Assembly (NCBI GenBank): GCA_022818135.1
Contig: JAFMSR010000003.1
Coordinates: 17,096,351 to 17,160,350 of the forward strand
Direction: 5' to 3'
From: Saxidomus purpurata
Lineage: Eukaryota; Mollusca; Bivalvia; Venerida; Veneridae
Length of the DNA stretch: 64,000 bases
In this document: piece after piece, positions 12,139 through 63,429 of the stretch
Position numbering within the stretch: the first letter of the stretch is position 1
How the letters are laid out: every line of letters starts with the position of its first letter
Notes under the pieces: model-generated
Database searches by the model: none
Seen by the model: only the letters and a program-made list of their open reading frames with translations
What the model was told of the DNA's origin: nothing
Translations under genes and position numbers: made by a program

Positions 12139-12739
12139 ATGGCAACACAGGAAGACAAGTATTACCTGAGGGCATCATATCTTTTGACAAAAGGAGGAAG
12201 GTTTGCAGCAATGAAAGTTTTAGACAGGGTAGTGGCAGCTCAAGGTGGTGACCTAGACTTGATTTTGAAAAAAGAACGTGCAAATCTACATAAAAATTTA
12301 AAAAGGAACAGTTTAGAAAAGTTATTTCCTATTAGTGGAATGACGGATATTTCAGCGTGGGACATTACTTTGCTAGCGAATGTGTTGCTGAATGTATTTC
12401 ACCCTTCACTCAATCAAAGTGAAAGAAAGTATCTAAGAGTCATAGAGTCTCGAAGAAATTACATTGCGCATCATCCGAGCGGTTCGCTGAGACTCGACCA
12501 GTTTGACGATTTTTGCAGAGATGTTAAAAAAGCTGTGAATAAACTATGTTCAAACTTGGATAAATCTGTCCAGGATGAGGGTGATGCAATCATTAATGAC
12601 TGTTTGTTGATTCCACTTGACGATGCCGTCCAAATTGAAGAATTGAAGCAAAAGCTACAAGACATAGATGATATGTTTATACTTCTTCTCGCCAAATCAG
12701 GCCCGATTACGGAAGAGGATTTAAGGAGCATGAAGGAAG
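12139..12739 (+). CDS. exon 1: HEPN domain of the DZIP3 type
   Basis: The 200 codons hold a domain of the family found at the N-terminus of DZIP3-like proteins. Landmarks are SYLLTKGG (13-20), LEKLFP (59-64), DITLLANVLLNV (75-86) and the active-site-like segment SRRNYIAHH (104-112). Arg106, Asn107 and His111 fit the RNxxxH signature of HEPN ribonucleases; an alternative His112 gives the x4 spacing seen in some members. A second helix DQFDDFCRDVKKAV follows (120-133). HEPN domains dimerise and either cut RNA or act as interaction modules; which applies here is unknown. The ATG has purine at -3 and G at +4, and an in-frame TAA sits two codons upstream. The exon ends after one base of a codon (GAAG|GTACTT), phase 1. 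Confidence 0.85.
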
Positions 12740-12992
12740 GTACTTAAAAATCTTTAGAAAAAGAAATTTACCACTAATACTGATTGAACAGTGACTATCA
12801 TGAAAACGACGAAATGATGAAACTGATTTTATTTATTGATTAATTTAATTGCAAGGATGATTGTCTTCATGATGATTACAATGATTGCGTTAATGTTCAC
12901 TTTTGTATACGTTCTATCGTTCTAGATGGTTATGATTATTGCAAGGATAATGGTGAATGGTAATTATATGATGATCAAAAATTAATAATGAG

Positions 12993-13182
12993 CGTAGCGG
13001 TGGTGTAGAGGTTAAGGCGCATGTCACTCACCCCGGAGGTTACGGGTTCTAGTCCAACTGCGGTCACGATTGTACCGCCTCATATGACACTAGTACTGGC
13101 TTTTCCAGGAAGCGGATTTGAAGGTGACTCGATAGGCTAGAAACTTCTTCACAATCGAGCTAAAATAAATGAGTATAAACTA
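12993..13182 (+). repeat. tRNA-derived SINE
   Basis: Box A TGGTGTAGAGG at 13001-13011 and box B GGTTCTAGTCC at 13045-13055 have tRNA-like spacing. The body includes 'CCTCATATGACAC', 'TTTTCCAGGAAGCGGA', 'ATCGAGCTAAAATAAAT' and ends in GAGTATAAACTAA. The body recurs at 56820-56946, so this is an interspersed Pol III retroposon. It lies in intron 1. Confidence 0.75.
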
Positions 13183-13570
13183 ACCAAGTTTTATGTGATA
13201 CTGGAATTATTTGAAATCACTCCCGAAATTAGGCAGTTGTACGTTGTACGTTTGCATTTACGAGTGCGAGTGTGAGTGCGCTGGTCAGGTGTATTATAAA
13301 TCTTAACATGCTGGCGTTTTTCCTCCTGGACGTAAAACGGCTTCAATAATTGTTTTGCTGATGAAGATACAGGCTTGAAATAATGATTCAACGATAGTTA
13401 GATAACAGGGCCACATCATTTGATTCAAAACACGTCAAAAATATAACTTACAATAAGAAGAAGAGTTATCCACCACAAAAATCCGACAATTTCTTACTCA
13501 CCAGCTAACATTTGTCTCGTTTAAAGTAAACCAGAAACCACTTTATGATCTACCCCCTGAATTATATTTT

Positions 13571-13760
13571 CCCGCCGCAAATGCGGGACGGGGATTTAAA
13601 ATTGAAATACGTTCGTCGGCCCGTACGTCCGAAACATTAAGAGTCTGCTCCATATCTTCTATATCCTGCGAGGGAAGTTCATATAACTTGGTCAATGACC
13701 TTAAGTGGACGGCTTTTGGGCACGAGTTTTACACGTCGTCTTGATGAGGTGAAAACTTGA
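13571..13760 (+). repeat. repeat start with 5' hairpin (family undefined)
   Basis: CCCGCCGCAAATGCGGG (hairpin) is followed by a CGTTCGTCGGCCCGTACGTCCG block, the same layout as the left ends of the other clam families. The interior and right end were not identified; the rest of intron 1 shows nothing recognisable. Confidence 0.4.
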
Positions 13761-14322
13761 TCAAGAGTTAAATGAAATTGTTGTGGATGTGCTTTGTATA
13801 GATGGTATGTTCGCGAGAACTTTTTCCAGTTTGCAAATAATCTTGGCTCATACAATATGGAGCGGTAATATTCAATACATTTTTGTTGCATTCCATTAAG
13901 GTATAACATGATATTGCGGCTTGAGTTTTTTTTACAGATATGCCTGAAATGTTTATATGTTTTTAATGGATGTTTGAAACAATGAATATTTTTGTTGGTA
14001 CATTTCAGTCTATTGTAAGTGTAAAATTTGTATGATGATTTGTATGATGAGTTTTGCAGCTATAGAATATTAAAGTTAAGTATAGCACATATAAATACAT
14101 ATTGATTGAATAAGGTTTTCAAAACTTTATGAAATATACACTGATTCGTGTGCTGCCCAACTTTTTAATTCTTATCGAATCATTTTCAGGCTATTTCTTC
14201 TTTTTTTAATTTTTTGTCGTTCATTTCCTAAATCTGCTGAAGACGACAATATCCAATAGCGACAATTTTGCTGCATGTACCTATTTTCCTCGACCTGCTA
14301 ACGTATTTCATTTATTTTAAAG

Positions 14323-14379
14323 AGGTAAAGCGCCTTGCTGAAATCATGTTAGATGGTCGTCCTTTTCAAAAAGTCAAAG
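14323..14379 (+). CDS. probable exon 2: short linker exon
   Basis: A 57-nt open segment is bounded by an acceptor (TTTATTTTAAAG) and a strong donor (AAAG|GTAAGC). It is symmetric phase 1-1, so it can be included or skipped without loss of frame. Joined to exon 1, it adds EVKRLAEIMLDGRPFQKVK, which continues the helical, charged character of the end of exon 1 (PITEEDLRSMKE). It probably extends the helix that links the HEPN domain to the next domain. It is too short to prove by eye; a spliced read is needed. Confidence 0.5.
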
Positions 14380-15412
14380 GTAAGCTTCTTTTTAACTGCT
14401 GGTATGTAATATGACCCTTTTTGAGCTTCGTAACGAAACAAATATTTTAAAAAAACGAACGCCTTCAGGAGTAAAATTTTGCCCAAAGAAAGCTCGTAGT
14501 ATTCTAAGACTCCTCTGCAAGATCTTTCACGAACAAAAGCCAGGTCAATGTCCCTGTTGGTATTGCATGTTGAGCAAGTGGGTACAAAGTCATTCTCTAC
14601 GACTATAACAATATGTACACACACACCGGTAAACCCGATAAAGTGGGAGCGACTTGATAAAGCTGGAGCGACCGGCAGAAAAGAGAATCATTTTGGTAAG
14701 GGTTTTTTTTCTTTTTTTCTTGGTATACTATTATACCTATCAAAAAGTAATTAATTGTATTAAAGGGCGGTGATTTGTGCACCAATACGTCTTTTTAGAT
14801 ATAAATCTGGTGACGTATTACCTGAGAAATCGATTGTTAAAAGTTCAATTTCTCGTCAGAAATGGTTAAAACCAGGTTTACCAATTTATCGGGTTTACCG
14901 GTCTGAAAACTTTCTGTGCTAAAACATGATATTTGTACAGTCAATCTTGCTGCTAAGGTAGCTGACAAAGAGAGCTCGTTTAGGGCCACGCGCAGTAACT
15001 TTAAAGAGGAAAACAAAACAATTTCCGTCCAGTACTTATTTATGTTTGAAATGAAGTGTTAGGACCAAATTCTTCGAGACATTTCTAAAATCTAGAGGCA
15101 GACATATATATTTTATACATGGCGAACGCTTTTATAACTTAACATAGGACATCTCTTTACAAGTTACTAAAATATATATTTGATTAACAGTTAGTCCAGT
15201 TACAGAGCACAATAATATACATGTTCATTTAAAGTGATAGAAAGAAGGTATAATTACTATTTACTTCTTTAATAGCTAATTATACATTAAAACTTAGGCC
15301 AACAGTTGGACAAGTTTACTTGGCCAGAAGTTGAACCTTTTGCATTGTTTTGCCACGTGTCTTATTAAATGTTTTGTTTATTGAAAATGAAACTTCATTA
15401 TGTGTGTTTCAG
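14380..15412. other. intron, no recognised insert
   Basis: About 1 kb of AT-rich sequence. Frames at 14349-14785 on both strands have no recognisable domain. Confidence 0.4.
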
Positions 15413-15817
15413 TTGTTAAATCAGAACTTCTGCTAAGTGCGTCTGTAAGTGATCAAGAAGACGTAGACCTGGCGAGCAGAATTTTAACTGAAGTAGTAGA
15501 TGCGGCCATAAGAAGAGCTGGGAGTAGTGCAGATCATGCAACGATTAGAGAGAACGTTGACAAGGTACTTGATGACCTAGAACGCATGTCAGGAGTACAT
15601 CTAGAAGGAGCACATCAAGAATGCGTCGTCTTGACTTTTACATGTTCGTCAAATGCGGGCTTACTGGACCTCTTTAACTATCTGGACGGTGAAACCTATA
15701 AGGAACGCTTGAACAGTATAGCATCTGCACTGAATGAGTATCTTCAGCGTCCGCAACCTCTATTCATTTCTTCCGAAGTGACATCTGAATGTTTACGGTG
15801 CATTTTAGACGACTTGC
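15413..15817 (+). CDS. exon 3: TRADD-N-like repeat 1 (both halves)
   Basis: 135 codons, acceptor TGTGTTTCAG, donor TTGC|GTAAGT, phase 1 at both ends. The N-half reads SELLLSASVSDQEDVDLASR, then a long helix to VDKVLDDLERMSGVHLEG. The C-half has a beta strand ECVVLTFTCSS, a helix GLLDLFNYLD, a second helix ERLNSIASALNEYLQ, a strand PLFISSEVTSE and a terminal helix CLRCILDDL. The order of strands and helices, and the spacing LTF...L..L...RLNSI..AL, match the N-terminal TRAF-binding domain of the adaptor TRADD, and repeats 2 and 3 align with it. The identification is by pattern, not by a search. If correct, it is a protein-binding ferredoxin-like fold. Confidence 0.65.
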
Positions 15818-16028
15818 GTAAGTGAAAGTTTAGCTCACACGAACCCAAAGTGCTTATAGTGAACTTTGGGATCGCTTGATATTAGAAGCAACTGCACATA
15901 CTGGTCCTGTACTTATAAAAAATCGTGCTCAACTGAGTTTCGTGCTGAAACTTTGTATCAATAGACTACTGTAAAATTCTTTTGAAAATTCTTTATAAAA
16001 GTATGTCATTTTCCGTAAATATTTATGA

Positions 16029-16750
16029 CTCCCCCATAAAAATGGGGGACATATGGAGGAGAGACAAATTGTTTTTGGCATTGTATTTGAGTACCAATCG
16101 TGAAAGTTTACAGGAATAATTATCAGTATTTGAGATGTGCAACTGCAGATTCATCCAGTATTGGCGGGGCTATGACCCTTACGTTTGTGCAAATCAGCTA
16201 TTGTAACTTGTGTCGCATAAAACTGAAAAAGTATTTGAGCTACAGCCATGAAACTTTACATTAATGTTTTGCACCTTGGAATTTTTGATGAGGATTTATC
16301 CAGTTTATTATGATATGGCCCTTGACTTAATGAAAATTGACGATTTTCAACTTTTGTTGCGCGCTACTCCGAAAGTAGTTTAGGTACAGCCATGAGTCCA
16401 AATAGGAATGTTTATCAGTCTGTGTTGTTGTGCATGGCGCTTTTTTCGTAATCAAACTAAAAATGAATTAGTATAAACTAAATGTGAAATTATGGCCCTT
16501 GACATATGTCGCATACAAAATACAAACATTGTTTGTATATCCAAAAGATATTTGAGCAATTCAATAATGTTTATCAGCATGTGAAGTTGTGCACGTGGGA
16601 TTTTGTTTTGTCTGTCTGTCCGTCTGTCTTTAAAGATGATGTTTAAACTTAAGATCTTTTGTTTCGTATACTGTACAGAGTTAAGAGTAAGAAACATTTT
16701 GTACTCAAACTCAGTTGAGCATGAAAAAAACTTTATAAGCAGGCGACCTA
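16029..16750 (+). repeat. clam repeat family F (5' hairpin CCCCCAT..ATGGGGG)
   Basis: The left end is the 18-bp palindrome CCCCCATAAAAATGGGGG (16031-16048). Degenerate units follow, with 'tttgagctacagccatgaaactttacatt' type segments and TGGCCCTTGAC. A GTCTGTCTGTCCGTCTGTC tract lies at 16610-16628. The right end is unclear. Confidence 0.45.
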
Positions 16751-16857
16751 GTCGTATTTGCTAAATATAGATAAAACCTTTAAAACATATCGCCTAATCA
16801 CGGTAAATTTCAACCAAATGATAATAGAAATATGTCTCGGGTAATCTTGTAATAGTG

Positions 16858-17940
16858 TATGCCCCCTTCAAAAAATAGGCGTATATTTGCGGATGTCTGT
16901 TGGTATGTCGGCCGGTCAAACTTGACATGGAGGTTGGTCATGACCAGCAGAATGACCCTTATTATCCCCCGCCTTGGCGGAGGGGATATAGTAACGGGCT
17001 CCGTCTGTGCGTCCGTCCGTCCATCTGTCACACTCTTGTCCGGAACATAACTCCAAAAGTATTCAAGGGATTTTTTTTAACTTTACAAACAGACAGAGGA
17101 CATTGAGAGGAAGTGCAGTGCCCAAGAACCATAATTCTACTTGGCCTTATTCTTTAATTATTCCCCTTTGTTATATGTTCTTGATCTTTCTTGTCCGGAA
17201 CATAACTCCAAAATTACTGAAGGGAATTACTTGAAACTTAATACAGTGATAGAGTACAATGAGGGGAAGTGCAGTGCTCAAGAACCATAACTCTACCATG
17301 CCACTTTTTGAATTATTCCCATTTGTTGTATTTCTTGAATTTTCTTGTCCGTTGCATAACTTCAAAAGTACTGAAGGGAATTACTTGAAACATCATGCAG
17401 TGATAGAGCACAGTGATGGAAGTACATGCCCAATAACATAACTACCTTATCTAATTATCCACTGCCAAAAACATACATTTCATTAAATTAGAAACTATAC
17501 CATATCCATTCCTCTAACCCCAAATTTCTTGGTCATAGAAAAAGCACTTGGCGGGGGGGATGGCCATGTCAAACATGGCTCTTGTTTATTTTGAGGTCAG
17601 TATGTCAAAGGTCAATGTCACGGTAACTCGGAATTGTATAACAGTTTCTGGACGATAACTCGAGAATACTTGGGCCTAGGACCTTGAAACTCAATGCGGA
17701 GGTTGGTTATAACAAGTAGAGGACCTGTATTGATTTTGAGGTCAGTAGGTCTAAGGTCAAGGTCACAGTTACCAAGAATAGTACAACTGTTTCCGGACGA
17801 TAACTCGAGAATACTTGGGCCTAGGATAACTTCATGTTGAGGTTGTTTATGACCAGTAAATGATCCCTATAGATTTTGGGGTCGGTAGAGGTCAAAAATC
17901 AAAGTCAGGGTGACCTGTAATTTGTAGAATGGTTTCCGGA
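16858..17940 (+). repeat. clam repeat family D, interrupted copy
   Basis: It starts with TATGCCCCCTTC (16858) and contains GTCGGCCGGTC, then units with 'ttccggacgataactcgagaatacttgggccta', 'gaggttggt(t/c)atgacca' and 'TTGATTTTGAGGTCAGTAGGTC'. The related copy is 56655-57230. It is split by the family G element at 16963-17587. It merges with family C units from about 17940. Confidence 0.55.
16963..17587 (+). mobile_element. clam repeat family G, full-length copy with terminal hairpins
   Basis: The left end is a long hairpin (TATCCCC..CGCCTTGGCG..GGGGATA, 16963-16988), followed by TGCGTCCGTCCGTCC. Three ~145-bp units follow with TTGTCCGGAACATAACTCCA, 'gaagggaattacttgaaac' and 'AAGAACCATAA'. 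The right end is the hairpin GCCATGTCAAACATGGC (17563-17579) and then TCTTGTTT. It sits inside a family D unit: the left flank CCAGCAGAATGACCCTTAT and right flank ATTTTGAGGTCAGTA are contiguous in other family D units (for example near 17710 and 57120). No target duplication is evident. Confidence 0.7.
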
Positions 17941-19528: not shown

Positions 19529-19747
19529 GACCTGAAGCAGATTTGAAGGAAAAGCGAACCGTTTACATACCAATACAGATAGGAACGATCGCCGGAATGA
19601 CATTTGTGTGGAATTTGTTTGTTAAAGATGGAATTTTGGAAAATTTAAACAGTCTCACAAAAGTTTTGTCTTCGTGCGTTGGGACTCACCTGACTGTAAA
19701 GGTGTCTTTAAATAAAGAGCAGTTCAAGAAAGTTTTTCTTAAAATAG
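19529..19747 (+). CDS. exon 4: TRADD-N-like repeat 2, C-half only
   Basis: 73 codons, acceptor ACATTAACAG, donor AATAG|GTACTA, phase 1-1. The protein KRTVYIPIQIGTIAGMTFVW, then LENLNSLTKVLSSCVGTHL and KVSLNKEQFKKVFLKIG, aligns closely with exon 6 (KRTIRMPITF..REGMRYVW, CLNSLSEAVSEHVGKHL, KASLDIEQLKTALTEIG) and more distantly with the C-half of exon 3. The N-half that precedes the C-half in repeats 1 and 3 is absent: the exon joins directly to the end of repeat 1. Either the half was lost with the exon or a diverged exon in 15818-19528 was missed. Confidence 0.75.
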
Positions 19748-20034: not shown

Positions 20035-21530
20035 CTAACAATCTGAGTATGTGAGACCTTGTACACACGAATTAATTTGTGGGCTACTTGTTAAGCCCAT
20101 TACTAAAACAGTAAACTGATATTTCACATTGTTGTACCAAAATCTAAAATATTTCCTATCTTGTCGACATACAGAAATACAGTAGAAATCATCAGACAAG
20201 TCTACCGACCCAAAGAAGCAGCATTTCCGCATAGACTTACAAAATTACAACTTCCAGTAGATAAATCCTGCTGCCTGTAATTGAGTCTGTTTTATTTGAT
20301 CTGTCATTGCCCTTTGCCAAAAGAAAAACTTGAGAATAAAAACGGCTTTTAGGAATAACTGATTTTTCACTGGAAGAAAACTGTACCATGGCATCAGTTT
20401 TGTAAGAACTGATAAAATACTGGATGATGACTTGTTTTTCTACAGTCTTTTACCCGTTTTTTTAAAAAATGGATTTTAACTGGACAAAAAAACTGGTTTT
20501 CTCCAAGCCTTTCAAATGTTGGCAGAAAAAACTGAAAAATTACTGGAAATTTAACTGAAAACTGATGTTTAACTGCATTTTAAATGGAAATATCAGCAGT
20601 TCTTGCTGCTGACTTCATGACAGAGTTTACAAAATCTGTACTGTTACTACGACTTTCGGCCACTCGCAGGTAATATTTTTTACAGAAGACCAATTTGCCG
20701 TTTTGATAATACTGTGCATAGAACCACCTGATTTAAAAGCCACTGAACTTGCAGCATCTCTAAATGAATGTGCCTTGAAAGAACTGGTATCTATGCCTGC
20801 TAGGTTTAACACACATTTAAGCCACCTAGTAATTGTAGAGGTACTAACAGATTTAAAAGTTACGAATGAAATTAGTAATTGCTTGTAAAGACCTTGTATT
20901 ATCCCAAAAATCATTGTCATTGCTACCTTCAGCAGAAGATCCTGAATTAACATCAGGAGTATTATCAAAGAGACAGTCTTCAAAAGCGCTGTTTAGTTTC
21001 CTGGCACTATAATAATAAACACCCTGATTAGGAAAATTTTTTCCAAAATCAACCTGATTCTCAGTCATAATAATCAAGCTCAACGTCATCATAGACATTG
21101 TCTCGAGGAAACAAAACCTTTACATTTGGACGAAACTTTGATTTTCTAATATGAGACTGAGGAGCCTCATAAATTTGATCATTAATATATCTACAATTTG
21201 GTGACAAGTTTGTGGGGTCAGCGACCCCCAATACATTTCTAAGTTTTTAGATATCCTCCATTGTTTAAATCAACAAAATAACTTGGATTTTTCAATTTCT
21301 TTTGGCCTCTATCGACTTTAACCTTCAGGGTTTTCTCCTCTTTTTCATTCTTTTTCAATTTGTTGACACCTTGCCCTGACGCGGAAATACCACGCGTAGG
21401 TATGGGCAAAATTTTGCAACTATCGTTTTCGTCCACAAACCCGACACGGACAACTTTACTTTTTAATTTCATTTTTTTTTTCGGAAAAGTCATTGAAACC
21501 CGAGAGAGAGCCACTACTTGAATCACAAGA
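20035..21530 (-). mobile_element. DIRS-like retrotransposon fragments (RT, tyrosine recombinase, gag-like)
   Basis: Minus strand. 20035-20232 encodes RT blocks GSVDLSDDFYCISV and KYFRFWYNNVKYQFTVLVMG, which are typical of DIRS RT. 20580-20983 encodes a tyrosine recombinase end: VSTSTITRWLKCVLNLAGID, KAHSFRDAASS (the H-x-x-R active-site box) and a frame-shifted YLRVAESRSNST tail. 20853-21526 holds two charged, low-complexity frames that could be gag remnants. All pieces are broken. On the minus strand the recombinase comes before the RT, the reverse of the usual DIRS order, so at least two fragments or a rearrangement are present. It lies in intron 4 of the host gene, antisense to it. Confidence 0.7.
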
Positions 21531-22099: not shown

Positions 22100-23110
22100 G
22101 ACATATTAGCAAGTGTTTGACAATTAACACTTTCCCTTAAATATTGTATCCATATCATTTATAAATCTGACAATTTCATTTTGCCATATCTTGAGTTCGT
22201 CTTTAAAACATTTACTAAAACTAGGATACCAAGAGGAACAAGCATAGTTTATATGACATTGTTTAAGGGCAGAGCACAATTTTTTTCTAGTATTATGATC
22301 TAATACCGTAGCATGTGTATACAAACATTTAAGTCTAGTATTGAACTTTGATACAATAGAGTTTACAACTGTTTACCAGACAAATTGTCATCAATACTTA
22401 AACCTAAATACTTTACAGATGATGTTGGAGATTTACAGATGATGTTGGAAAAAAAGTGTGATTTGTGGCACACAGTTTTAAAACTTACATCCTTTTTAAT
22501 TTCCTTTGAGAACGAAATAAAATACATTCAGATTTACCCAAATGTAGTGATAACTAATTGTCAACTAACCAAAATGAACATGATTCTAAAACAGTTCCTA
22601 GTTTTTCAGATAATTATGACATTTGGATCTTTGTGGGCAAATTAAATTGCACTTTCATCAGCATATAGTATCAGTTTACATGTTGGATCAATATTAATTT
22701 TCATATCATTTACATACCAAAGAAACAATAAAGGGCCTAGAATACTGCCCTGTGGAACACCACATGTAACAGGCCGAAAGTAAGAATAAACATCATTAAC
22801 ACAAACATTTAATTTTCTACCCATAAGATATGACATGAACCAGTCTGTAGAAATAACACCATTGATTTCAAGTTTACCACATAAAATATCATGGTGTCAA
22901 TTTCATACAGTGTCAAATGCTTTCTGCAAATCTAACATTACCATACCGGTATACGGACCTTTGGCGTTGTTATCCCTTATAAAGCCAAGTAAGTGTATAA
23001 GACATGTATCAGTTGAATACGATAATCCTGACTGTAATTCATTCAATAACATATTGTAAACATCAAGAATTTTTCCAATTGTACATACACAGATTTTCAA
23101 GATTTTTTAT
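22100..23110 (-). mobile_element. LINE reverse transcriptase fragment, broken
   Basis: Minus strand. 23100-22903 has palm motif A (MVMLDLQKAFDTV). 22836-22642 has motif B (GVPQGSILGPLLFLWYVNDM) and motif C as LILYADESAI, where the second catalytic Asp of YADD is Glu. 22324-22124 has the post-RT segment ALKQCHINYACSSWYPSF and IWQNEIVRFI. Frameshifts separate the pieces and both ends of the element are missing. It resembles a Jockey/CR1-group LINE; the clade is not fixed. Confidence 0.8.
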
Positions 23111-28228: not shown

Positions 28229-31200
28229 CACCGGGGAGTATCACGTGATCTCAATAGTACACTGTCCGCACAAAATGGCTGCAGAAATCGCCACTTCGAC
28301 CAAGAAATAAGGGGTAAGCTCATTGTTATTGATATTTTAGGATATGCAGAATAGGCGCAAAGTACCCGCATAATAAAAATAATTACTAACAATCTCTTCG
28401 TTTTTCCGAAGTTTTCTTGGTTTAGGCCTGAAACTCTATACAGATAATATTTTTTTAAGTACATTGTCTGAACAAACATTTAATTTGCGTATTTCAGCGC
28501 TAAAAGCATTTATAATGCACGATCTTCTATAAAATAATGATTTAATGTGTGAATGTTTCCTTCGTGACAAGTTTCCAGTGTTTTTTCGGTGTTTCAAAAA
28601 AAGTTATGGATTTTTTTCATAGCGAGTACATTGTCTGAACAAAATAATATGAGTACATTGTATGAACGTCTTTTTTCGATGTATCTACTGACTCATTATA
28701 TTCATTTCTTTTTAGTTTGGGCCATCGAAGCAAGCATTTCGTACCTGCTGTTGCCTGTTTGTCACGTTTTTTCAGAGATTGGAAGGTAAGAGTCAAGATG
28801 TTTTTTTAATTCTAGAAATTTCAATCCAATGTTCATGAGCGATACATACTCTTGTAAAGAACTGAACATTTGTAAAATGTAAGATGTTTATTTTGAAAAC
28901 AGTTCAATATCTAGTCTTCACCGTCAGTGATTCATATTCTAATTTAACAAAGTGAAAAATTTAGTTTGTGTTGGTGCACTTGTATTGCAAAGTCTTTATG
29001 GATATAACTGATACTACATGAATATACAATACAAGTTAGTCGTATTTTCTTTCAGAATGCGTCATAAGAAGCCATCGTTGTCGCTTCATCGACAGAAGAA
29101 AACACGAGCGGAGCCAAATTCACTTCAACGATGCTTAAAAACAACCATTGCATCGCAGCTGAAAAGCGCAAAATGGAAAACATTTTGTCCCCAATCAGTT
29201 GTCTTATTATAGTAAGTCTACAAGAAATGCCACCAATACTGTCTCCAATAAAATTACCATTTCGTTTATCCACTTAATTACAAAGCATCGTCACCTAAAA
29301 AGCGTGCCAAGAAAAACTCCTCAGCACGAGTGCTTTTCAAACCATCTGACAGTGGTTTTTCTTTAAAACATCAAATCAATTGTAAAAGCTTTGCCGAACT
29401 TGAGAAATTATAAATAAATTGTGACACTGTTTTTGTCGGTGATTTAGACTTGCATCGGTGCACTGCAATTTGGAAGCTTTATTAGTGCTACTGCTTTCAG
29501 ACAAAGTACTCGTTGACTATTTTTTATACAACCTCTATACATTATTTTTCATTGTTATGTTTGGAACACTTTCATCATTAAGCGCATCGTGTTCAAGATT
29601 TGATGTACCACTGTTTTTAATACTCACAGCATCACATTCGAAATCACAATCACGAAAGTCTACTTTCTCCAGTTTTATAGAGCCCTTTTGAGTCTAAAGT
29701 GTTCTGTTTAACGCACTTTTAACATCTACCGTTTCACGTTCACGACTTGATGATTAACCAATGTTTTCAAGATAATTTACATCACTGACATAAACAGTGT
29801 CACAATTTAATTCTGATCTCCCAAGTTCGGCAAAGCAGAACACTTTAGACTCAAAAGGGCTCTATAAAACTGGAGAAAGTAGACTTTCGTGATTGTGATT
29901 TTGAATGTGATGCTGTGAGTATTGAAAACAGTGGTACATCAAATCTTGAACACGATGCGCTTAATGATGAAAGTGTTCCAAACATAACAATGAAAAATAA
30001 TGTATAGAGGTTGTATAAAAAAAAGTCAACGAGTACTTTGTCTGAAAGCAGTAGCACTAATAAAGCTTCCAGATTGCAGTGCACCGATGCAAGTCTAAAT
30101 TACCGACAAAAACAGTGTCATAATTTATTTATAATTTCTCAAGTTCGGCAAAGCTTCTACAATTGATTTGATGTTTAAAAGAAAAACCACTGTCAGATGG
30201 TTTGAAAAGCACTCGTGCTGAGGAGTTTTTCTTGGCACGTTTTTTAGGTGACGATGCTTTGTAATTAAGTGGAGAACGAAATGGTAATTTTATTGGAGAC
30301 AGTATTGGTGGCATTTCTTGTAGACTTACTATAATAAGACAACTGATTGGGGACAAAATGTTTTCCATTTTGCGCTTTTCAGCTGCGATGCAATGGTTGT
30401 TTTTAAGCATCGTTGAAGTGAATTTGGCTCCGCTCGTGTTTTCTTCTGTCGATGAAGCGACAACGATGGCTTCTTATGACGCATTCTGAAAGAAAATACG
30501 ACTAACTTGTATTGTATATTCATGTAGTATCAGTTATATCCATAAAGACTTTGCCATACAAGTGCACCAACACAAACTAAATTTTTCACTTTGTTAAATT
30601 AGAATATGAATCACTGACGGTGAAGACTAGATATTGAACTGTTTTCAAAATAAACATCTTACATTTTACAAATGTTCAGTTCTTTACAAGAGTATGTATC
30701 GCTCATGAACATTGGATTGAATTATCTAGAATTAAAAAAAATACTCTTGACTCTTACCTTCCAATCTCTAAAAAACGTGACAAACAGGCAACAGCAGGTA
30801 CGAAATGCTTGCTTCGATGGCCCAAACTACAAAGAAATGAATGTAAATAAGTCAGTAGATACATTGAAAAAAAAAAACGTTCAGACAATGTACTCATATT
30901 ATTTTGTTCAGACAATGTACTCGCTATGAAAAAAATCCATAACTTTTTTTCAAACACCGAAAAAACACTGGAAACTTGTCACGAAGGATACATTCACACA
31001 TTAAATCATTATTTTATAGAAGATCATGCATTATAAATGCTTTTAGCGCTGAAATACGCAAATTAAATGTTTGTTCAGACAATGTACTTAAAAAAATATT
31101 ATCTGTATAGAGTTTCAGGCCTAAACCAAGAAAACTTCGGAAAAACGAAGAGATTGTTAGTAATTATTTTTATTATGCGGGTACTTTGCGCCTATTCTGC

Positions 31201-31317
31201 ATATCCTAAAATATCAATAACAATGAGCTTACCTCTTATTTCTTGGTCGAAGTGGCGATTTCTGCAGCCATTTTGTGCGGACAGTGTACTATTGAGATCA
31301 CGTGATACTCCCCGGTG
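28229..31317. mobile_element. 3.1-kb near-perfect palindrome (nested element)
   Basis: Left arm 28229-29705 and right arm 29836-31317, about 1.48 kb each, around a 130-bp loop. The ends are CACCGGGGAGTATCACGTG and its complement. The arms share identical 64-codon frames (29018-29212 plus, 30329-30523 minus) and 77-codon frames with one or two changes (29458-29691 plus, 29851-30084 minus). Small indels are visible, e.g. CGTTTATCCAC against CGTTCTCCAC. It interrupts the right arm of the outer element between CGATCG and TAGACAC. The intact sequence (27050-27065, minus) reads CGATCGTGTAGACAC, so no clear target duplication is seen. Confidence 0.85.
30129..30410 (-). CDS. hypothetical protein in palindrome arm
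   Basis: A 93-codon frame in the right arm, directed towards the palindrome's centre. The C-terminal half, with ASSPKKRAKKNSSARVLF and SFAELEKL, is basic and Ser-rich and looks more like real coding than chance. The left arm carries the same sequence but with a one-base difference near 29272 that breaks the frame. I recognise no family. Upstream, a polypyrimidine tract with TTTCTTTCAG precedes it, so it may be an exon of a captured or element-encoded gene. Confidence 0.3.
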   Translation of the reverse strand: MLKNNHCIAAEKRKMENILSPISCLIIVSLQEMPPILSPIKLPFRSPLNYKASSPKKRAKKNSSARVLFKPSDSGFSFKHQINCRSFAELEKL

Positions 31318-34199: not shown

Positions 34200-34385
34200 T
34201 TTTTGATCTTGAAATAGCCTTTTACGGACCTGGCGATAGCGCAGAAAGAGGAAAAGATATATTCGCAAAAGCTTTCAAGGAGACATTCCAAGGCTCACAA
34301 ATAAAGGATGAATATCAAGCAATCAGACTTGCTATTCAGTTGGTTTTGAATCAGATTGAAGACGTTGAGGATGTTCAAATAAAAG
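34200..34385 (+). CDS. exon 5: TRADD-N-like repeat 3, N-half
   Basis: 62 codons, acceptor CATTTTCAG, donor AAAAG|GTAAAT, phase 1-1. The product FDLEIAFYGPGDSAERGKDI, then FKETFQGSQIKDEYQAIRLA and LNQIEDVEDVQIKG, has an initial strand followed by two helices, as in the first half of exon 3 (ELLLSASVSDQED...VDKVLDDLERMSGVHLEG). It is followed by the C-half exon at 42405, so repeat 3 is complete but split by an 8-kb intron, while repeat 1 is encoded in one exon. The Gly-x-Gly-Asp turn after the first strand has no counterpart in repeat 1. Confidence 0.7.
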
Positions 34386-35545: not shown

Positions 35546-35548
35546 TTT

Positions 35549-42404: not shown

Positions 42405-42611
42405 ATTTAGAGTACAAGAGAACAATTCGTATGCCTATTACGTTCGAGACAAGGGAAGGGATGCGATACGTCTGGGACTTGTTCGAAAAAGGCGGAGCAA
42501 CAAACTGTCTGAATAGTTTGTCAGAGGCAGTATCGGAGCATGTTGGCAAACATCTAAAAGTGAAGGCTTCTCTTGATATTGAACAGTTAAAAACAGCTCT
42601 CACAGAGATAG
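42405..42611 (+). CDS. exon 6: TRADD-N-like repeat 3, C-half
   Basis: 69 codons, acceptor TTGCTTTAG, donor GATAG|GTATTG, phase 1-1. The protein DLEYKRTIRMPITFETREGM continues YVWDLFEKGGATNCLNSLSE and KASLDIEQLKTALTEIG. It is the closest relative of exon 4, at about 45 percent identity by eye, with conserved KRT..(I/M)PI, the W in VW(D/N)LF, LNSL, VG.HL.VK.SL and the terminal IG. This is good evidence that the two exons arose by exon duplication. Confidence 0.8.
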
Positions 42612-50186: not shown

Positions 50187-50299
50187 ATGGCAACCCAGAA
50201 GCGAAATTGTTGACAGTTCAGCAAAAGGATTATTTTGTAGCAAACATAGATCCAGAGAAACTTCTAAATCACTTGACATGCCTTACACAGAGCAACAAG
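50187..50299 (+). CDS. exon 7: CARD-like domain, first half
   Basis: 38 codons, acceptor TGTCGTTTAG, donor CAAG|GTATCA; phase 1 in, phase 0 out. DGNPEAKLLTVQQKDYFVAN then IDPEKLLNHLTCLTQSNK matches the first three helices of a CARD, with the typical IDPEKLLNHL helix. The match depends on joining to exon 8, which supplies the remaining helices. CARDs form homotypic assemblies in inflammasome-like and apoptotic complexes. Confidence 0.7.
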
Positions 50300-51458: not shown

Positions 51459-51627
51459 GATAATGTGACTAAAACTTACAATGAGAGCGGACGGGAAAAT
51501 GCAAATAGCCTCCTCTTAACACTTCTGATGGGATGTCCGGACGGCATAGATCAGCTTTTGGTTGCGCTGCGGGCACGAGATATCAATCAACAAGACTTAG
51601 CAAACTGGATTGAATTTCCTTTGAATA
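51459..51627 (+). CDS. exon 8: CARD-like domain, second half
   Basis: 56 codons, acceptor TATTCTAG; phase 0 in. The donor AATA|GTTTGT was chosen because it gives phase 1, which matches exon 9; GTATAA four bases later would not. DNVTKTYNESGRENANSLLL, TLLMGCPDGIDQLLVALRAR and QQDLANWIEF give helices 3-6 of a CARD (x..NA..LL..L..GCPDGIDQLL.AL......LA). With exon 7 it makes 94 residues, the normal CARD length. The splitting intron is phase 0. Confidence 0.75.
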
Positions 51628-51885: not shown

Positions 51886-51971
51886 AAAGCATTGACCGGC
51901 TCCGAGACCTATCAATTAAGAAAAAGGCTCCTAGCATCGACAGTGGTCTTTCTGATTTTGTTACTGTGAAG
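51886..51971 (+). CDS. exon 9: charged linker
   Basis: 29 codons, acceptor AATATTTTAG, donor GAAG|GTAGTA; phase 1 in, phase 0 out. The product SIDRLRDLSIKKKAPSIDSG and LSDFVTVK has no domain. It extends the CARD C-terminus with a basic patch and a short strand-like end. Confidence 0.6.
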
Positions 51972-52856: not shown

Positions 52857-52947
52857 AGTACCGACCCGACTGAAGACGAAAGTGATAGTCGGCAGACAGC
52901 ATCACATGTCCAGTCTATGTCAAAAAGTGATGTATCAGAATATTATG
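52857..52947 (+). CDS. exon 10: acidic Ser/Asp/Glu-rich linker
   Basis: 30 codons, acceptor CCAATTGCAG, donor TATG|GTAAGG; phase 0 in, phase 1 out. STDPTEDESDSRQTASHVQS and MSKSDVSEYYG look disordered, with several casein-kinase-like S-x-x-E/D contexts. The strong donor and the matching phase with the 63133 exon support it. Confidence 0.65.
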
Positions 52948-53906: not shown

Positions 53907-54903
53907 AAGTAGGTTTTTTTAATAAAAAAACCCTGCTTATTTAAAATAGCAATGTCGTATGTCAGGCGAGCGGGTTGGCGTCAAACATTGGTTTCCGTCC
54001 AATAACTTTAGTTAGGAGTGACCAATTGCAATACAACTAGGTATGTGTGAAGCTTGCATGGAGACGCAGCTTGGAATTGCATTTGGGGTCACAAGGGTTA
54101 AGGTAAGGGTCACTGTTACTAAAATAGAAAAATGGTTTCTGCTCAATTACTCAAGTTAGGAGTGACTAATTGCAATGAAAGTCGGTGTGTGGGTAGATTG
54201 CGTGGAGAGGAAGAATGAGATTGCATTTTGGATTACTAGGGTCAAAGTCAAGGGCACTGTTACTAAAATAGAAAAAAAGTTTCCGCTCAATAACTTGAAT
54301 TAGGAGTGACCAATTGTAATGAAACTTGGCGTGTAGGTAGCTTGCGTGGAGAGGAAGCTTTCGGTTACTAGGGTCAAGGTCACTAGGGTCAAGGTTAAGG
54401 TCACTGTTATTAAAATAGAGTTTTATCTTTTTTTAGTTTTAAGATTGTTTTAAGCAAAAAAAAAATGGGAGGTCAAGGTCACTAGGGTCAAGGTCAAAGT
54501 TTCAAAAATTAAATTTTTATCTTTTTTAGTTTTTAGATTGTTTTAAAAAATTGGGGGTCAAGGTCACTAGGGTCAATGTCAAGGTCAGTATTACCAAAAT
54601 AGATTTTTATCTATTTTTAGTTTTAAGATTGTTTTAAGAAAAACAAAATTAGGGGGCTAAAGGTCACTGTCACTAAAAAAAATTTTTTTTTAAATTGTTT
54701 AAACCAAAAAGTCAAGGTCACTAGGGTCAAGGTCAAGGTCACTGTTACTAAAAATAAATTAACAAAAAAGATTTTCTATAATTTTTAGATTGTAAGGCAA
54801 AAAAACATTCTTTGCAAAGGGTGGAGTCAAGGTGACTTTTAATTCTACAATTTCTTCAGGTGCTGTTTAAACCTGCTTTGGCGGCATTGCCGCGTCTTCT
54901 TGT
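53907..54903 (+). mobile_element. clam repeat family C, second full-length copy
   Basis: The left hairpin AAGTAGG...CCCTGCTT is at 53907-53938, followed by AATGTCGTATGTCAGGCGAG. The units are the same as in 9437-11592 but fewer. The right end has AAACCTGCTTTGGC and the hairpin GCGGCATTGCCGC, then GTCTTCTTGT. Confidence 0.75.
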
Positions 54904-55128
54904 TTTATATATTATTGTCCAGTACACAAAGCCTTAGGCTTTAGATATTTAGTACGTTGCAATATCTTAATGTGTTGTAAACTTTGTTCATTATGTGGAA
55001 ATTGGTCCCAAAAAGTTGGTTCATTATTTGATTGAAAACTTTAAGATGTTTTACATATCCAAACCCAGAAGGTGGTTAGTTTGATGTGTAGCTTTGTCTT
55101 GTGGACTTGAGCTTTTAAATTGTTTTCG

Positions 55129-56640: not shown

Positions 56641-56654
56641 GAATCATTTTTTTT

Positions 56655-57520: not shown

Positions 57521-58129
57521 ATACACATTGGCTACCAGCGTTAAAATAGAATGAAAACTTGTAAAACGTTTCTTCATAAGTTATTGGTCATATTCTTAAA
57601 AGCGTCACAGGAATAATCCATCATCATGCCTCACCAAAATTGTTTAAACTGTTCCGCTCTGCTGCACAAAATAGCCTCTAGAGCTGAAAATTGAAATTAC
57701 AATTTTTCCCTAACCAATGGGCCATTTTCAACCAAACACAGGATTTGTTTTTAGATGCATTATCATATAAAAGAAACGCTATTCAGGCGTTGTGTTTGAG
57801 AAAGTGACGTCATAATGTTTATAACATTACGCTACAGGTAATTCACGAGAGTCGTCTGGCATAGGAGGGGTGCCAGACCAATGTTTCCTGCATGGGTAAA
57901 AAAGTTGGAAATGCCGATCCGATATGCAAGGAAATTATATTAGGAAATACTTTAAAAATCTTCCTATCCAAAATCATGAGTTCAAGAGTTTAGATATTTG
58001 GTGTATAACATTTTCTACTGGTCTTCTATCAACATTGTTCAAATTGTATAAAATAGGTCCTGTCCCAAGTTATTGTGTAAGAAAATATCTAAACGTCCTC
58101 TTGTCCAAACCCGTAAAGCATAGAGCTTA

Positions 58130-58134
58130 GATAC
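58130..58134 (+). repeat. target-site duplication GATAC (left)
   Basis: GATAC precedes the left LTR and recurs at 62399-62403 after the right LTR. Confidence 0.9.
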
Positions 58135-58291
58135 TGTTGTGTTCTAGGGGATTCATTATAATCAAAGACACACAATAGTTAATATGGCTTTATTCTCTGA
58201 GTGCCTGTAGAGAAGTGACCAGAGCGCATTATTGAGCGCCAAGTAAACGGCGTGTAATATGATACGCACAGAGATGCATGCATACACTACA
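58135..58291 (-). repeat. 3' LTR (157 bp)
   Basis: TGTTGTGTTCTAGGGG ... ATGCATACACTACA. Identical to the 5' LTR except for one transition (ATATGGC against ATATGAC). A purine tract, AAAAGGGGAGA on the minus strand at about 58294-58304, abuts it and serves as the polypurine tract. Confidence 0.95.
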
Positions 58292-58303
58292 ATATCTCCC
58301 CTT

Positions 58304-59240
58304 TTAAGAATATACCACATACATTAAATACAAGTAGAAAAGAAATAAAATCAGCAAAACTTTTATAAAAAGTTCTAAACAACATGAAATTAATACATTA
58401 ACCTGCACTACTTTGAGTAAAACTTTATCTCCGACAGAAATATCACTTTTTTGCGCGTTTCTTTTCTTATCCGTATATAGCTTTGATTTTGATTTCCGTT
58501 CAAAATCTCGATCTCTCACCTCATGGTCAGCTAAATCAAATTTACCATACTCTTGTAACTGTGGGATTTTTGTTCTTATCTTCCGACCATAAAGGAGCTC
58601 TGCGGAACTTACGCCTATTGTAGAATGAGGGCTACTTCTGTACATGAGTAAGTAAGTATTAAGTTCTTGTCTCCAATCGCGTTTCTCAGCAATAGCTATG
58701 CGAATACGCTTCATTATGCTAGACATTTGTCTTTCTACTAAACCATTTTGCTGAGGTGACAACGGCGTAGAATGTGTGACCTTAATACCATACTCTTTCA
58801 AGAATGACTGAAAATGATCACTTGTAAAGTAGCTTGCATTGTCTACACGCAAATAGAACGGTATGCCATGTCTGGAAAACATTTTCCTGAGAACTGAGTT
58901 AACCTTTCCGAGGTTGTAGACTTGATAATTTCGATTTCCATAAACCTGCTGTAGTAATCTATAACAACAACTAATTGTTCACCTGTAGGCAGCGGGCCTA
59001 ACAAGTCACATGTATATATTCCCACGGCGCATTTGGAAGTTCGGTCGGTTTAAGAGGTTCCGGCTTTGTCGGACATCCTACTAACTGACAACCATGGCAT
59101 GTTTTACAAACATTTTCGACATCGCGGTCGATTCCTGGCCACCATACCCGTGTACGTAAGGCCTGTTTCATTGAAACTATACCGGGATGACCAGAGTGTG
59201 CGGCTTCTAATATCTTTGCCCGTAAATCTGTAGGGACCAC
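58304..59240 (-). pseudogene. pol integrase region, disrupted
   Basis: Continues from the Gag-Pol frame after an in-frame TGA at 59253-59255, at a CGA-like codon position, so a CpG transition is likely. 59240-58998 holds the zinc-binding start: H..H spacing in HSGHPG and C..C in CKTCHGC. A one-base loss near 59008 shifts the frame. 59025-58843 holds the first catalytic Asp (VVVIDYYSRF and before it CDLLGPLP). A second shift near 58880 follows. 58882-58304 has VDNASYF, GLVERQ (third acidic residue, Glu) and SVGDKVLLK. After KVLLK the sequence is hydrophobic and unrelated, and the LTR starts 13 bp after the stop, so the integrase C-terminus has been lost. The copy cannot make active integrase. 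Confidence 0.85.
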
Positions 59241-59252
59241 TATGCGCGTACC

Positions 59253-62084
59253 TCATAGTACTAAGAATCCTATTGCAGACAATTCATTTTTGACAACTAA
59301 GTAGTCTTTGAATGGTATCTTGTACCATAAACCATACGTCAAACAGTCTCGGACAGCGGACATTTCAGGGTCATACTTTGAAGCCTTTTCTATATCTCGC
59401 GTTGTGACGGCTTCCGGTGTAGCAGCACGAGCTACAAACTTTACATATTCGTCATCAGATACAAACTGATCTATAGACTTTCCCGAATTTTCATTTACTA
59501 ATCTGCTGAGACAATCAGAAATATTTGTCTTGCCTTTGATATGACGAACTGTGTACGTATATCCTTGTAAACGTAACACCCATCTCTCAATTCGCGCGGA
59601 GGGTTTTGATTTTGGCGCGAATATATATTGAAGCGCTTTGCAGTCAGTGACTAGCTGAAATTCTATGCAGTATATGTACGCATGAAATCTTTCACATGCA
59701 CAAACGATTGCAAGTGCCTCTCGTTCAGTTTGCGAATAACGTCGCTCAACATCTGTTAAGCTACGGCTAGCATAACAAATTACACGGTAATCATTACCCT
59801 GTTGTTGCGTAAGCACTGATGATAACGCGTACGGCGAAGCATCGGTTATGACCTGAGTTTTTGATTTGATATCAAAATATCCTAGAGTATCAGCGCTCAC
59901 TAATTGCTTTTTCAAGTTACTGAATGCAGATTGTTCTGCGTGACCCCATTTAAACCAAACATTCTTTCGCGTCAATTTGCGAAGCGGTTCTGAGATTGTC
60001 GCTAAATCTCGTATATATCTTGCATTGAAATTAACCAGACCGAGAAAAGATCTGATTTCGCTTGCATTACGCGGTGGTCTCGCGTTAAGCACATCTTGCA
60101 CCTTCGATTCGGAAGGACCTACACCGTGTTCGGACAACACATTTCCCATAAATATCACCTTTGACATTTCAAATTGACACTTTTCAGGGTTTAGAGTAAA
60201 CCCTTTTTCCTTTAACACTTTCAACACATTATCTAGACACTGCTGATGTTCTTCTTTCGTTGGCGCGTGCACGATTATATCATCCATTATGTTGCGTGTT
60301 CCTGGGCAGCTTTGTAGAATTTGTTCGAGCACTTTCTGGAACATTTCAAAAGCACAGCTTACACCCTGTAGAAGTCTGCGATATCTGAATACTCCTACAT
60401 GTGTAATAAACGTAGTGATCTCCCTTGATTCAGGATCAAGTTCAAGCTGGTGGTAGGCGTTCGAAATGTCTAATTTACTAAAGAATTTAGATCCATTCAA
60501 ATCTTGAAGCACTTCTTCCACCGTAGGTATTGGGTGTCGAACCCGTTTTACTGCCTCATTCGCTCGCCTCATATCAATGCACAATCGAATGTCGTCGTTT
60601 CTCTTGGGTACCACTACTACTGGAGATACCCATCTACTTGGTGAATCTACTTTTTCAATTATTTCAAGCTTTTCAAGGTCATTGAGTTTATTCTCAAGTT
60701 TGTCCCTCAAACTGAATAGTATTCGACGTAAAGGCTGAATAACTGGTTCTACAGTTTCATCGATCGGAATTTTTAATTGGAAATCCCGAAGTTTGCCAAT
60801 TCCTGTGAATAGTGCTGTGTTTTCATTGATAAAGCTTGACTGAATAGCGTTCACTTCCGGTCCTAATCTCAAAACATTTAGTTGGATGGCTGTGTCTTTT
60901 CCAAGCAAAGACTGTCCCTTTCCATCCAACACTGTGAATTCTACGTTGTCTAATTTGACCGAATTGCATACCACATTAGCTCTGAATATTCCTGCTAATT
61001 TAAGAGGCGTTTTATTTCCATACGCGTAAATTTTCTTCCCTGTTCTTTCATGGGACAAACAATCAAAATGTTTTTGTGTTTTCATGAAGTTCCAAGTGTT
61101 CCTATCTATTATGTTGCAGGTTGCCCCCGAGTCTATGATCATATTCAGTGGTACGTTGCCGACGTCTACATTAACTGAGCTATTCCTAAATTTATCTTGT
61201 ACGGTGAATGAATATTCCCCTTCTGAATATTCCCTCTCGCTTTCTGGTGTTAAGCCATTGCTTTCTACTGCATGAATTTTTTGTCTTGAGTGTTGCTTTT
61301 TCCCGTTACTTCGTGATGACCTACATTTCCTCGCATAGTGTCCTGTTTTGTGACACTTATTACATTCTGCATGCGTTGCTGGACATGTCGGGTCTTTTGC
61401 TTTGTGACCCCGCCGGCCACAGCTGTAACATTCCACATGAGTCGGTTGCTTCTGTGGTTGTCGATATCCACGTTTGCCCTTGACCTGGAACGCGTCATCA
61501 TTCGGTTCCCTTTGGGAATAGTGTTTCCCATTTTCGATCTGTTTTGCACTGTCCTCAGCTCTTTCATACGTCGTCGCAAGTTCAAGCACTTTGTCTAGCG
61601 TTAGCTCTTTCTGATATAGAAATTTTCTTCTGAGAGTGGCGGAGCAACATTTTTCAACTATTTGATCTCTAATTCTGTCCTTTCCGTCAGTAAACTCACA
61701 TGAAAGAGAGAGTTGCTTTAAACGTGTTGCGTATTCTTGAATTGATTCGTTATCTTTTTGTCTTTCTGAATTAAATTTATGTCTTTCAAAAGATAGGTTT
61801 GTTTTTGGCTTGAAATATTCATTAAATGCGCTAACCGCTGTGTCAAACTCATTTTCCGCCCCGGTATTTTCTAAAGTATCAAAAATTTGTTGTACCTCAG
61901 GACCAACGAGATGCAATAAAAGTGCTCTCTTTTGGGTTTTGTCTGTCACCCCCGATCCGGTTACGAAATACTTGAACGACTTCATCCATCGGTCCCATCT
62001 GCTGGGTAGACTACTTGAATCTCCCGCGATCTGAAACGGCTCAATGCTGGACACTGACAGTGCTTTGGCCATAGTTCTGCACAA
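59253..62084 (-). CDS. Gag-protease-RT-RNase H polyprotein (943 codons, stops early)
   Basis: Gag occupies about residues 1-300, with two zinc knuckles: CYSCGRRGHKAKDPTC (219-234, spacing longer than the CX2CX4HX4C norm) and CNKCHKTGHYARKC (241-254, canonical). The protease active site is IIDSGAT (317-322). RT has palm motif A KLDISNAYHQ (537-546), GVSCAFEMFQ (574-583) and the catalytic IMDDI (599-603). RNase H has TDAS (747-750), EREAL (787-791) and TDCKAL (813-818). The start is either Met1 or Met5 (MAKALS). The frame ends at a TGA where the integrase should follow. It is otherwise intact, as expected for a young copy. Confidence 0.9.
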   Translation of the reverse strand: MCRTMAKALSVSSIEPFQIAGDSSSLPSRWDRWMKSFKYFVTGSGVTDKTQKRALLLHLVGPEVQQIFDTLENTGAENEFDTAVSAFNEYFKPKTNLSFERHKFNSERQKDNESIQEYATRLKQLSLSCEFTDGKDRIRDQIVEKCCSATLRRKFLYQKELTLDKVLELATTYERAEDSAKQIENGKHYSQREPNDDAFQVKGKRGYRQPQKQPTHVECYSCGRRGHKAKDPTCPATHAECNKCHKTGHYARKCRSSRSNGKKQHSRQKIHAVESNGLTPESEREYSEGEYSFTVQDKFRNSSVNVDVGNVPLNMIIDSGATCNIIDRNTWNFMKTQKHFDCLSHERTGKKIYAYGNKTPLKLAGIFRANVVCNSVKLDNVEFTVLDGKGQSLLGKDTAIQLNVLRLGPEVNAIQSSFINENTALFTGIGKLRDFQLKIPIDETVEPVIQPLRRILFSLRDKLENKLNDLEKLEIIEKVDSPSRWVSPVVVVPKRNDDIRLCIDMRRANEAVKRVRHPIPTVEEVLQDLNGSKFFSKLDISNAYHQLELDPESREITTFITHVGVFRYRRLLQGVSCAFEMFQKVLEQILQSCPGTRNIMDDIIVHAPTKEEHQQCLDNVLKVLKEKGFTLNPEKCQFEMSKVIFMGNVLSEHGVGPSESKVQDVLNARPPRNASEIRSFLGLVNFNARYIRDLATISEPLRKLTRKNVWFKWGHAEQSAFSNLKKQLVSADTLGYFDIKSKTQVITDASPYALSSVLTQQQGNDYRVICYASRSLTDVERRYSQTEREALAIVCACERFHAYIYCIEFQLVTDCKALQYIFAPKSKPSARIERWVLRLQGYTYTVRHIKGKTNISDCLSRLVNENSGKSIDQFVSDDEYVKFVARAATPEAVTTRDIEKASKYDPEMSAVRDCLTYGLWYKIPFKDYLVVKNELSAIGFLVL

Positions 62085-62241
62085 TTTTCTTCTCTTACTT
62101 TTTTCGGAATTTAATCCAGTCAGAATTTAATCTATCGGAATTTAATCCAGTTGAATCCCCGTTACTCTTTTTATCGGAATTTAATCCACGACACGAATAT
62201 AACAATTAAATGTTTTCTTTAAATTCCATCTTCGTCGCCAT

Positions 62242-62398
62242 TGTTGTGTTCTAGGGGATTCATTATAATCAAAGACACACAATAGTTAATATGACTTTAT
62301 TCTCTGAGTGCCTGTAGAGAAGTGACCAGAGCGCATTATTGAGCGCCAAGTAAACGGCGTGTAATATGATACGCACAGAGATGCATGCATACACTACA
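62242..62398 (-). repeat. 5' LTR (157 bp)
   Basis: Same sequence and orientation as 58135-58291, with one substitution. It would hold the promoter of the element, directed to the left. Confidence 0.95.
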
Positions 62399-62403
62399 GA
62401 TAC
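62399..62403 (+). repeat. target-site duplication GATAC (right)
   Basis: Matches 58130-58134. Confidence 0.9.
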
Positions 62404-63132
62404 TTAATATATAATATTATCTAGTGGTGCTCTACTACGAATGTTGTAATAATGCTCCTTGAGTTAACATTGGTACAACTCTGAGGGTCATCATTTTACA
62501 TATTGGAAGATCTTCTTTTCTAAGATTGCATGATCAAGAGCTTAACTATTTGGTGTGTAGCATTGTCTGGTGGTCCTCTACAATGGTTTCAGTTATTCGC
62601 ATTGAATCAATACTGGCCGAGCACCTTTAAAACTACTTTTATGTTTTCGAAATAATAGTGATGAAATTAAGATCATGTGATCAGCAAATAGATTTCAGTG
62701 CTTAATTGGGCATGTTATGGTCATCTTCACTTCTAGACCTACTATCTGATTGTTAAAGATACAGCAATTTAACATGTACCAAGCCTACACAAACATAATA
62801 AACAAATATTATTATATTTAAAACTATGACCTTCGGACTTACTTTCTTCCTTGTAAAGCTACAGTCATGAAATTAAGACCATATGTTAAGTTTTTGTATT
62901 GCCTCCATACTCACAGCAAAGCTAATGGACTATAATTATGACCTATCATGAAAGGAATTTTCAACCTTGACCTTCTGTACAGAATTCAAAGTAGCATGCA
63001 TACATTCTACAGATTTCACTTCTATTTGAAAAAGTGCAAATATTATAGCCCTCTTGTAAAATGTTTTGCAAACTTATGATAGTATTGCTATGAATAAGTA
63101 AACACATTTAATATATTTGCCTTGTTTTCTAG
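62404..63132. repeat. continuation of the family A-like repeat, then intron
   Basis: 'TTAATATATAATATTATCTAGTGGTGCTCTAC' and 'GAGCTTAACTATTTGGTGTGTAGCATTGTCTGGTGGTCCTC' type units continue the family A pattern cut by the LTR element. The last 300 bp are plain AT-rich intron. Confidence 0.5.
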
Positions 63133-63429
63133 GTGAGATCTTTGAAAAACAGACAGGAGTTGAAGAACATATCATTGGATGTAGGATAGTTCTTAAAGGT
63201 GAAGATTGTCATGAAGAAGTGACAGCGGGACCAATTGTTGGAATCAATCGAAGCGGGAAAACATTTTTCCTTACAGTATGTAGGCATCCATTTAAGTACA
63301 AACGAGTAGATTGTGTAAGAAATTACGATATCAACCAACCCTTTGGAAAGGTCTATTATAGAATTGAAAAGTATGGCGTATGTCTGGTCAAAGTTGATTC
63401 GTCAATAATATCAGCAATATGTACAAAAG
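63133..63429 (+). CDS. exon 11: start of a possible trypsin-like protease domain
   Basis: 99 codons, acceptor TTGTTTTCTAG, donor AAAG|GTTCGT, phase 1-1. The protein GEIFEKQTGVEEHIIGCRIV, then AGPIVGINRSGKTFFLTVCRH, later FGKVYYRIEKYGVCLVKVDS. The pattern (strand)-GPIVG-(x)-(hydrophobic) FFLTVCRH resembles the strand and catalytic His region of chymotrypsin-fold enzymes (LTAAHC type), and GVCLVKVDSS resembles their 'D-I-A-L-I-K-L' strand. At that place the usual Asp is replaced by Gly/Val, so if the fold is right, catalysis may be lost. The Ser motif would lie in exons beyond the window. The domain identity is tentative; the exon itself is well supported. Confidence 0.6.

Follow-up and report, generated by a model that had tools for sequence, protein, structure and literature searches.

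The locus described here raises the question of whether exons scattered over 51 kb of the Saxidomus purpurata genome encode one protein chain, and whether the domains of such a chain point to a gene of innate immunity. The window, i.e. the whole stretch of DNA that was analysed, comprises 64,000 nucleotides of contig JAFMSR010000003.1. A preliminary description had proposed a single gene in which an HEPN domain, TRADD-N-like repeats, a CARD and a chymotrypsin-like domain are joined.

Exons, splice phases and coding signal

The exons were derived from the list of open reading frames, the sequence itself and a splice-site scan. Ten exons on the forward strand (+), between positions 12139 and 63429, were found to splice without a stop into 791 codons, every intron being of the GT...AG type. 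Exon 1 (12139-12739) carries the start ATG, with an in-frame stop two codons upstream of it, an HEPN_DZIP3-like domain and the motif RNYIAH. A full TRADD-N-like module is encoded by exon 2 (15413-15817) and the second half of a module by exon 3 (19529-19747), whereas the second full module is divided between exon 4 (34200-34385; first half, from the splice scan) and exon 5 (42405-42611; second half, homologous to exon 3). The first and second parts of the CARD lie in exon 6 (50187-50299) and exon 7 (51459-51627). Exon 8 (51886-51971), open and in phase, encodes a linker; exon 9 (52857-52947) encodes an acidic linker and exon 10 (63133-63429) a C-terminal domain that matches no family, both taken from the splice scan and in phase. 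Eleven exons had been described, and no eleventh was recovered inside this interval. A possible exon 11 with a stop codon (63476-63534, +) is doubtful and requires a 46-nt GT-AG intron (63430-63475); behind these 46 nucleotides an open run continues in the phase of exon 10 and closes with SGAVG and a stop.

The splice phases agree at nine of the nine junctions, so that the stop-free join with matching phases described previously was borne out, with the reservation that the end of exon 7 was picked to preserve the frame, which is broken by the alternative end. Seven introns (1|2, 2|3, 3|4, 4|5, 5|6, 7|8 and 9|10) are in phase 1, all of them at the borders of modules or half-modules, and the remaining two (6|7 and 8|9) are in phase 0. 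Modules flanked by phase 1 introns on both sides are a prediction of exon shuffling. The longest intron measures 14,452 bases, and the one before exon 10 measures 10,185 bases. Open stretches between an AG and a GT are common in the window (180 at loose thresholds, 85 once overlaps were collapsed) and the donor scores of exons 3 and 5 are low in the splice scan (-1.4 each). An open join alone is therefore weak evidence, and this weakness is greatest for exon 10, which lies behind the 10,185-base intron, and for exons 8 and 9, which are small.

Codon usage was scored by a leave-one-out procedure against non-exonic DNA. The z values for exons 1 to 10 were 4.4, 3.2, 1.5, 3.8, 2.4, 2.0, 3.2, 2.3, 2.0 and 1.3, respectively. 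The coding signal is thus weak in exons 3 and 10, and homology rescues exon 3 but not exon 10. The proposal of a single gene over 51 kb holds in part: it is likely for exons 1-7 and becomes uncertain for exons 8-10, up to an exon 10 whose codon signal is weak.

The surrounding DNA is AT-rich (GC 0.30-0.41 in 2-kb steps), intron-like and rich in repeats. The last intron harbours a young LTR retrotransposon (58135-62398, - strand). Its LTRs, 157 nt long, agree in 156 positions, GATAC flanks it on either side, and its coding frames, which lie on the - strand, are interrupted by stops. Intron 3 contains a near-perfect inverted repeat (28229-31317) with arms of 1481 and 1485 bases about 120 bases apart, which align with 1452 identities, 24 mismatches and 8 gaps. 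A transcript running through it could fold into a long double-stranded RNA, and an assembly artefact is a possible origin of the structure. More copies of the same material, 90-99% alike and in both orientations, are scattered over intron 3 between 26668 and 37389. There are also two related tandem arrays (9526-11396 and 53989-54666), whose units measure about 145 and 70-200 bases and are rich in GGTCAAGGTCAC. Three further ORFs resemble, by eye, fragments of a mariner transposase (1898-2212, +), a tyrosine recombinase (20627-20992, -) and a reverse transcriptase (22642-22896, -).

HEPN domain, repeated modules and CARD

Exon 1 matches the Pfam family HEPN_DZIP3 (PF18738) with an E value of 3.9e-5, which supports the HEPN domain of the preliminary description, though the score of 23.9 bits lies below the curated cut-off of 27. 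Within the whole chain the same family reaches only 18.6 bits (E 0.0017), and two further HEPN families match more weakly. The run RNYIAH fits the ribonuclease motif of HEPN proteins (Rx4-6H; RNxxxH). Among 20000 shuffles, R[NHDK]x3H occurred in 5.8% and Rx4-6H in 51%, and a motif so frequent by chance is, taken alone, weak evidence. In the pearl oyster, the Rx4-6H motif is present in 194 of 202 DZIP3-HEPN proteins, according to the available part of that report (PMC9646362). A ribonuclease activity of the HEPN domain is a prediction from sequence.

Within exons 2-5 the module occurs twice in full, in exon 2 and across exons 4+5, and once as a half, in exon 3, and one important question is whether these are truly repeats and whether they are TRADD-N domains. 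Homology between exons 3 and 5 was detected with phmmer (E 2.9e-16, in a set of 1577 six-frame ORFs of at least 25 codons from both strands), and exon 3 aligns with exons 4+5 at 26.7 SD above shuffles. The alignment of exon 2 with exons 4+5 stands 5.1 SD above shuffles, its score being reached by 2 of 1000; for exon 2 against exon 3 alone, 107 of 1000 shuffles reach the score, which is not significant. Six-frame searches recovered the second half only in exons 3 and 5 and the first half only in exons 2 and 4, the rest being rows at chance level; a search upstream of exon 3 for a first-half exon that would serve as its partner found none. Scans of viral contigs returned three pattern matches for exon 1 and 37 for the module alignment, with no relative among them. 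The repeats announced in the preliminary description are therefore real, and it is their name that is unproven. The Pfam family TRADD-like_N gave an E value of 0.09 for exon 2 and was absent for exons 4+5, and hhalign assigned a probability of 1.3% to the match of the module with TRADD-N. Out of 1000 shuffles in each case, 177 attained the score of the alignment with human TRADD-N for exon 2, 39 for exons 4+5 and 276 for exon 3; the HEPN exon, which served as control, gave 210. When the module profile was run against the PDB, its three matches were at chance level and TRADD was not among them. The structural model of exon 2 is of low confidence (pLDDT 48); Foldseek returned 143 matches for this poor model at E 10, none at 0.001 (top E 0.29), with no TRADD among the best 50 of the 143, and these matches were disregarded. 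The TRADD-N topology served as the basis for comparing the order of the elements predicted in this model, and the module aligns colinearly with human TRADD-N. From that element order and that alignment, it is plausible that the modules are TRADD-N domains.

The CARD became apparent on splicing. The frame containing exon 6 matched CARD_2 with an E value of 0.028 and exon 7 alone matched no Pfam family at E 1, whereas the two exons spliced together matched CARD_2 (PF16739) with an E value of 2.6e-10 and 40.6 bits, above the curated cut-off of 28.2. In the whole chain the match scores 36.4 bits and covers residues 552-618. This gain across the 6/7 junction is the best evidence for a real splice. 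Scans of single exons can miss a death-fold domain whose sequence is divided between two exons and which surfaces only once they are spliced. At E 10 the CARD matched sixteen PDB sequences. MAVS accounts for nine of them (E 0.0015-0.23) and MDA5 for five (0.84-0.94); the other two, at 0.74 and 1, are unrelated. Three of the four alignments displayed are gapless, the top-scoring one being gapped. These comparisons strongly support, at the level of sequence, a CARD_2 of the MAVS/RIG-I type, which confirms the CARD of the preliminary description and makes it more specific.

In the alignment, the intron within the CARD corresponds in position to MAVS residues 39|40, and human MAVS presumably has a matching exon boundary near residue 39. 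Exon 7 ends near the equivalent of MAVS residue 95, and a human MAVS boundary has been placed at residue 97 in the available text of PMC5536018. The available parts of PMC8306335, PMC11763982 and PMC3900705 give no residue number for the first MAVS boundary. The placement of the CARD intron as in human MAVS is regarded as a lead.

C-terminal exon

The chain had been described as ending in a chymotrypsin-like domain. Searches of Pfam, NCBIfam and PADLOC at E 10 assigned exon 10 to no family, and its three matches among PDB sequences are at chance level. A protein search with this region gave 15 candidates, none at E 10, and the single match of a tblastn search in phages, at E 5, was disregarded. 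In exon 10 the run LTVCRH follows a Gly-rich stretch. The canonical S1 spacing is T-x-x-H, with the His three residues past the Thr, and the Asp site of S1 proteases has the pattern D-[LIVF]-[AS]-[LIVFM]. Here the His lies four residues past the Thr, one off the canonical spacing, and the Asp pattern is not present in the exon. Visual inspection of 63430-64000 in the three forward frames revealed no Ser site of the GDSGG type; such a site would sit in later exons. The claim of a demonstrated protease was thus rejected, as neither profile nor PDB matches support it and the His and Asp sites are non-canonical.

An active chymotrypsin-like protease that forms the C-terminus and acts as the effector, as in the bacterial CARD-protease systems, would agree with the position of LTVCRH behind the Gly-rich stretch, with a structural model of exon 10 that is mostly beta (pLDDT 35, too poor for use) and with the location of the 3' part of the domain outside the view. 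Set against the missing family matches, the chance-level PDB matches and the two non-canonical sites, it is a very improbable reading. Exon 10 may represent a degenerate chymotrypsin-like fold, of which maybe only a part is in view.

Readings of the locus and comparison with known systems

Our main reading starts from what was observed: the exons, the repeats, the class of the CARD and the similarity to HEPN. The locus would be a host innate-immunity gene, whose product combines an HEPN domain with a ribonuclease-type motif, the repeated modules, a MAVS/RIG-I-type CARD, a linker and a C-terminal domain, and works as a switch operated by clustering. It is held tentatively, with a probability of about 0.4. 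It has to be weighed against the possibility that two or more adjacent genes were wrongly joined, for example a gene with the HEPN domain and the modules, a CARD gene and an exon 10 gene, each of them working alone; the CARD gene might then encode an adaptor of its own. The length of the introns (up to 14,452 bases), the abundance of open AG-GT stretches and the weak codon signal of exon 10 all favour such an error, which is a real possibility, if a doubtful one. The agreement of the phases at every junction, with one exon end fitted, argues for the single chain, as do the related chains already published and a search, not systematic, in which no start exon for a separate CARD gene was recognised.

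The locus might also belong to an expanded immune family and be decaying or allele-specific, with its exons still present and the full product lost. The half-module of exon 3 without its partner, the low donor scores of exons 3 and 5 and the introns holding a recent LTR element and a large inverted repeat are in line with decay. Since the 791 codons are free of stops and frameshifts and the codon z value is at least 2.0 in eight of the ten exons, we consider this explanation unlikely.

In the host-gene reading, the ribonuclease activity, the partner of the CARD, the clustering switch and the antiviral role are all inferred. HEPN ribonucleases are often dimeric in action, and MAVS-type CARDs form filaments. 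Recruitment through the CARD would cluster the chains; in the cluster the HEPN domains would dimerise and RNA would be cleaved, and the TRADD-N-like modules could act as extra docking sites that bring in partners. In a more far-reaching version, the product would be a soluble MAVS-like adaptor with its own ribonuclease: RIG-I-like receptors would seed CARD filaments that cluster the HEPN domains, sensing and cleavage would reside in one chain with an RNase-L-like output without transcription, and the gene would have arisen from shuffled phase 1 modules. That version is speculative and improbable as it stands. If the chain is real, it would tie a MAVS-type CARD to a predicted ribonuclease in an invertebrate, suggest a short cut from the sensing of viral RNA to the destruction of RNA, and provide a testable case of shuffled phase 1 modules making new immune adaptors.

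CARD-protease systems are known from bacterial gasdermin defence. The present chain shares the CARD with them and differs in being the product of an animal gene, in having no Pfam gasdermin match along the joined chain and in a protease that is not demonstrated. A protein search with the joined chain, in which the 7992 candidates sharing most words were scored, gave none at E 0.001; the collection is perhaps poor in animal proteins, and the result carries no inference on rarity.

In oyster MAVS the CARD is N-terminal and accompanied by a Death domain and a transmembrane segment, and the protein binds the CARDs of oyster RIG-I, as stated in the available text of PMC5557890. The CARD studied here belongs to the same Pfam family, and MAVS CARDs are its best solved relatives. 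The identity of the gene with MAVS was nevertheless rejected, because its CARD is internal and not N-terminal. No membrane segment was found in the 791 residues (the highest 19-residue hydrophobic window scores 1.47, and the 3' end may lie beyond the window), and MAVS lacks HEPN and modules. With the DZIP3-type HEPN proteins of the pearl oyster (PMC9646362, in the part available) the chain shares an HEPN_DZIP3-like N-terminus and an Rx4H-type motif; unlike those proteins, which often carry NACHT, it shows no NACHT by Pfam. Lophotrochozoan RIG-I-like receptors carry grafted death-fold and other domains, as far as the accessible text of PMC8998645 goes.

The closest published systems are those of Kaur et al. 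2021 (PMC8195603), whose available text describes chains of bivalves in which HEPN is combined with TRADD-N and death-fold domains, reports their lineage-specific expansions and discusses retrotransposons near TRADD-N genes. The preliminary view of a notable new architecture was in this respect overstated. As in the bivalve HEPN, Ig and DED-TRADD-N proteins of that paper, an N-terminal HEPN, a TRADD-N-type module and a death-fold domain occur here in one chain, in a phylum rich in such architectures and with retrotransposons nearby. The chain differs in that its modules are repeated and followed by a MAVS-type CARD, that no Ig repeats or DED were found, and that its modules are only TRADD-N-like, not statistically established as TRADD-N. 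A comparable chain may already be listed in the source tables of Kaur et al. Among the papers listed on HEPN, TRADD or MAVS with CARD in molluscs or invertebrates, judged by title and opening lines of the abstract, none dealt with HEPN and a MAVS-type CARD together, which does not prove their absence from the literature. The architecture is a variant of this published theme, and its specific point is the MAVS-type CARD in an HEPN chain.
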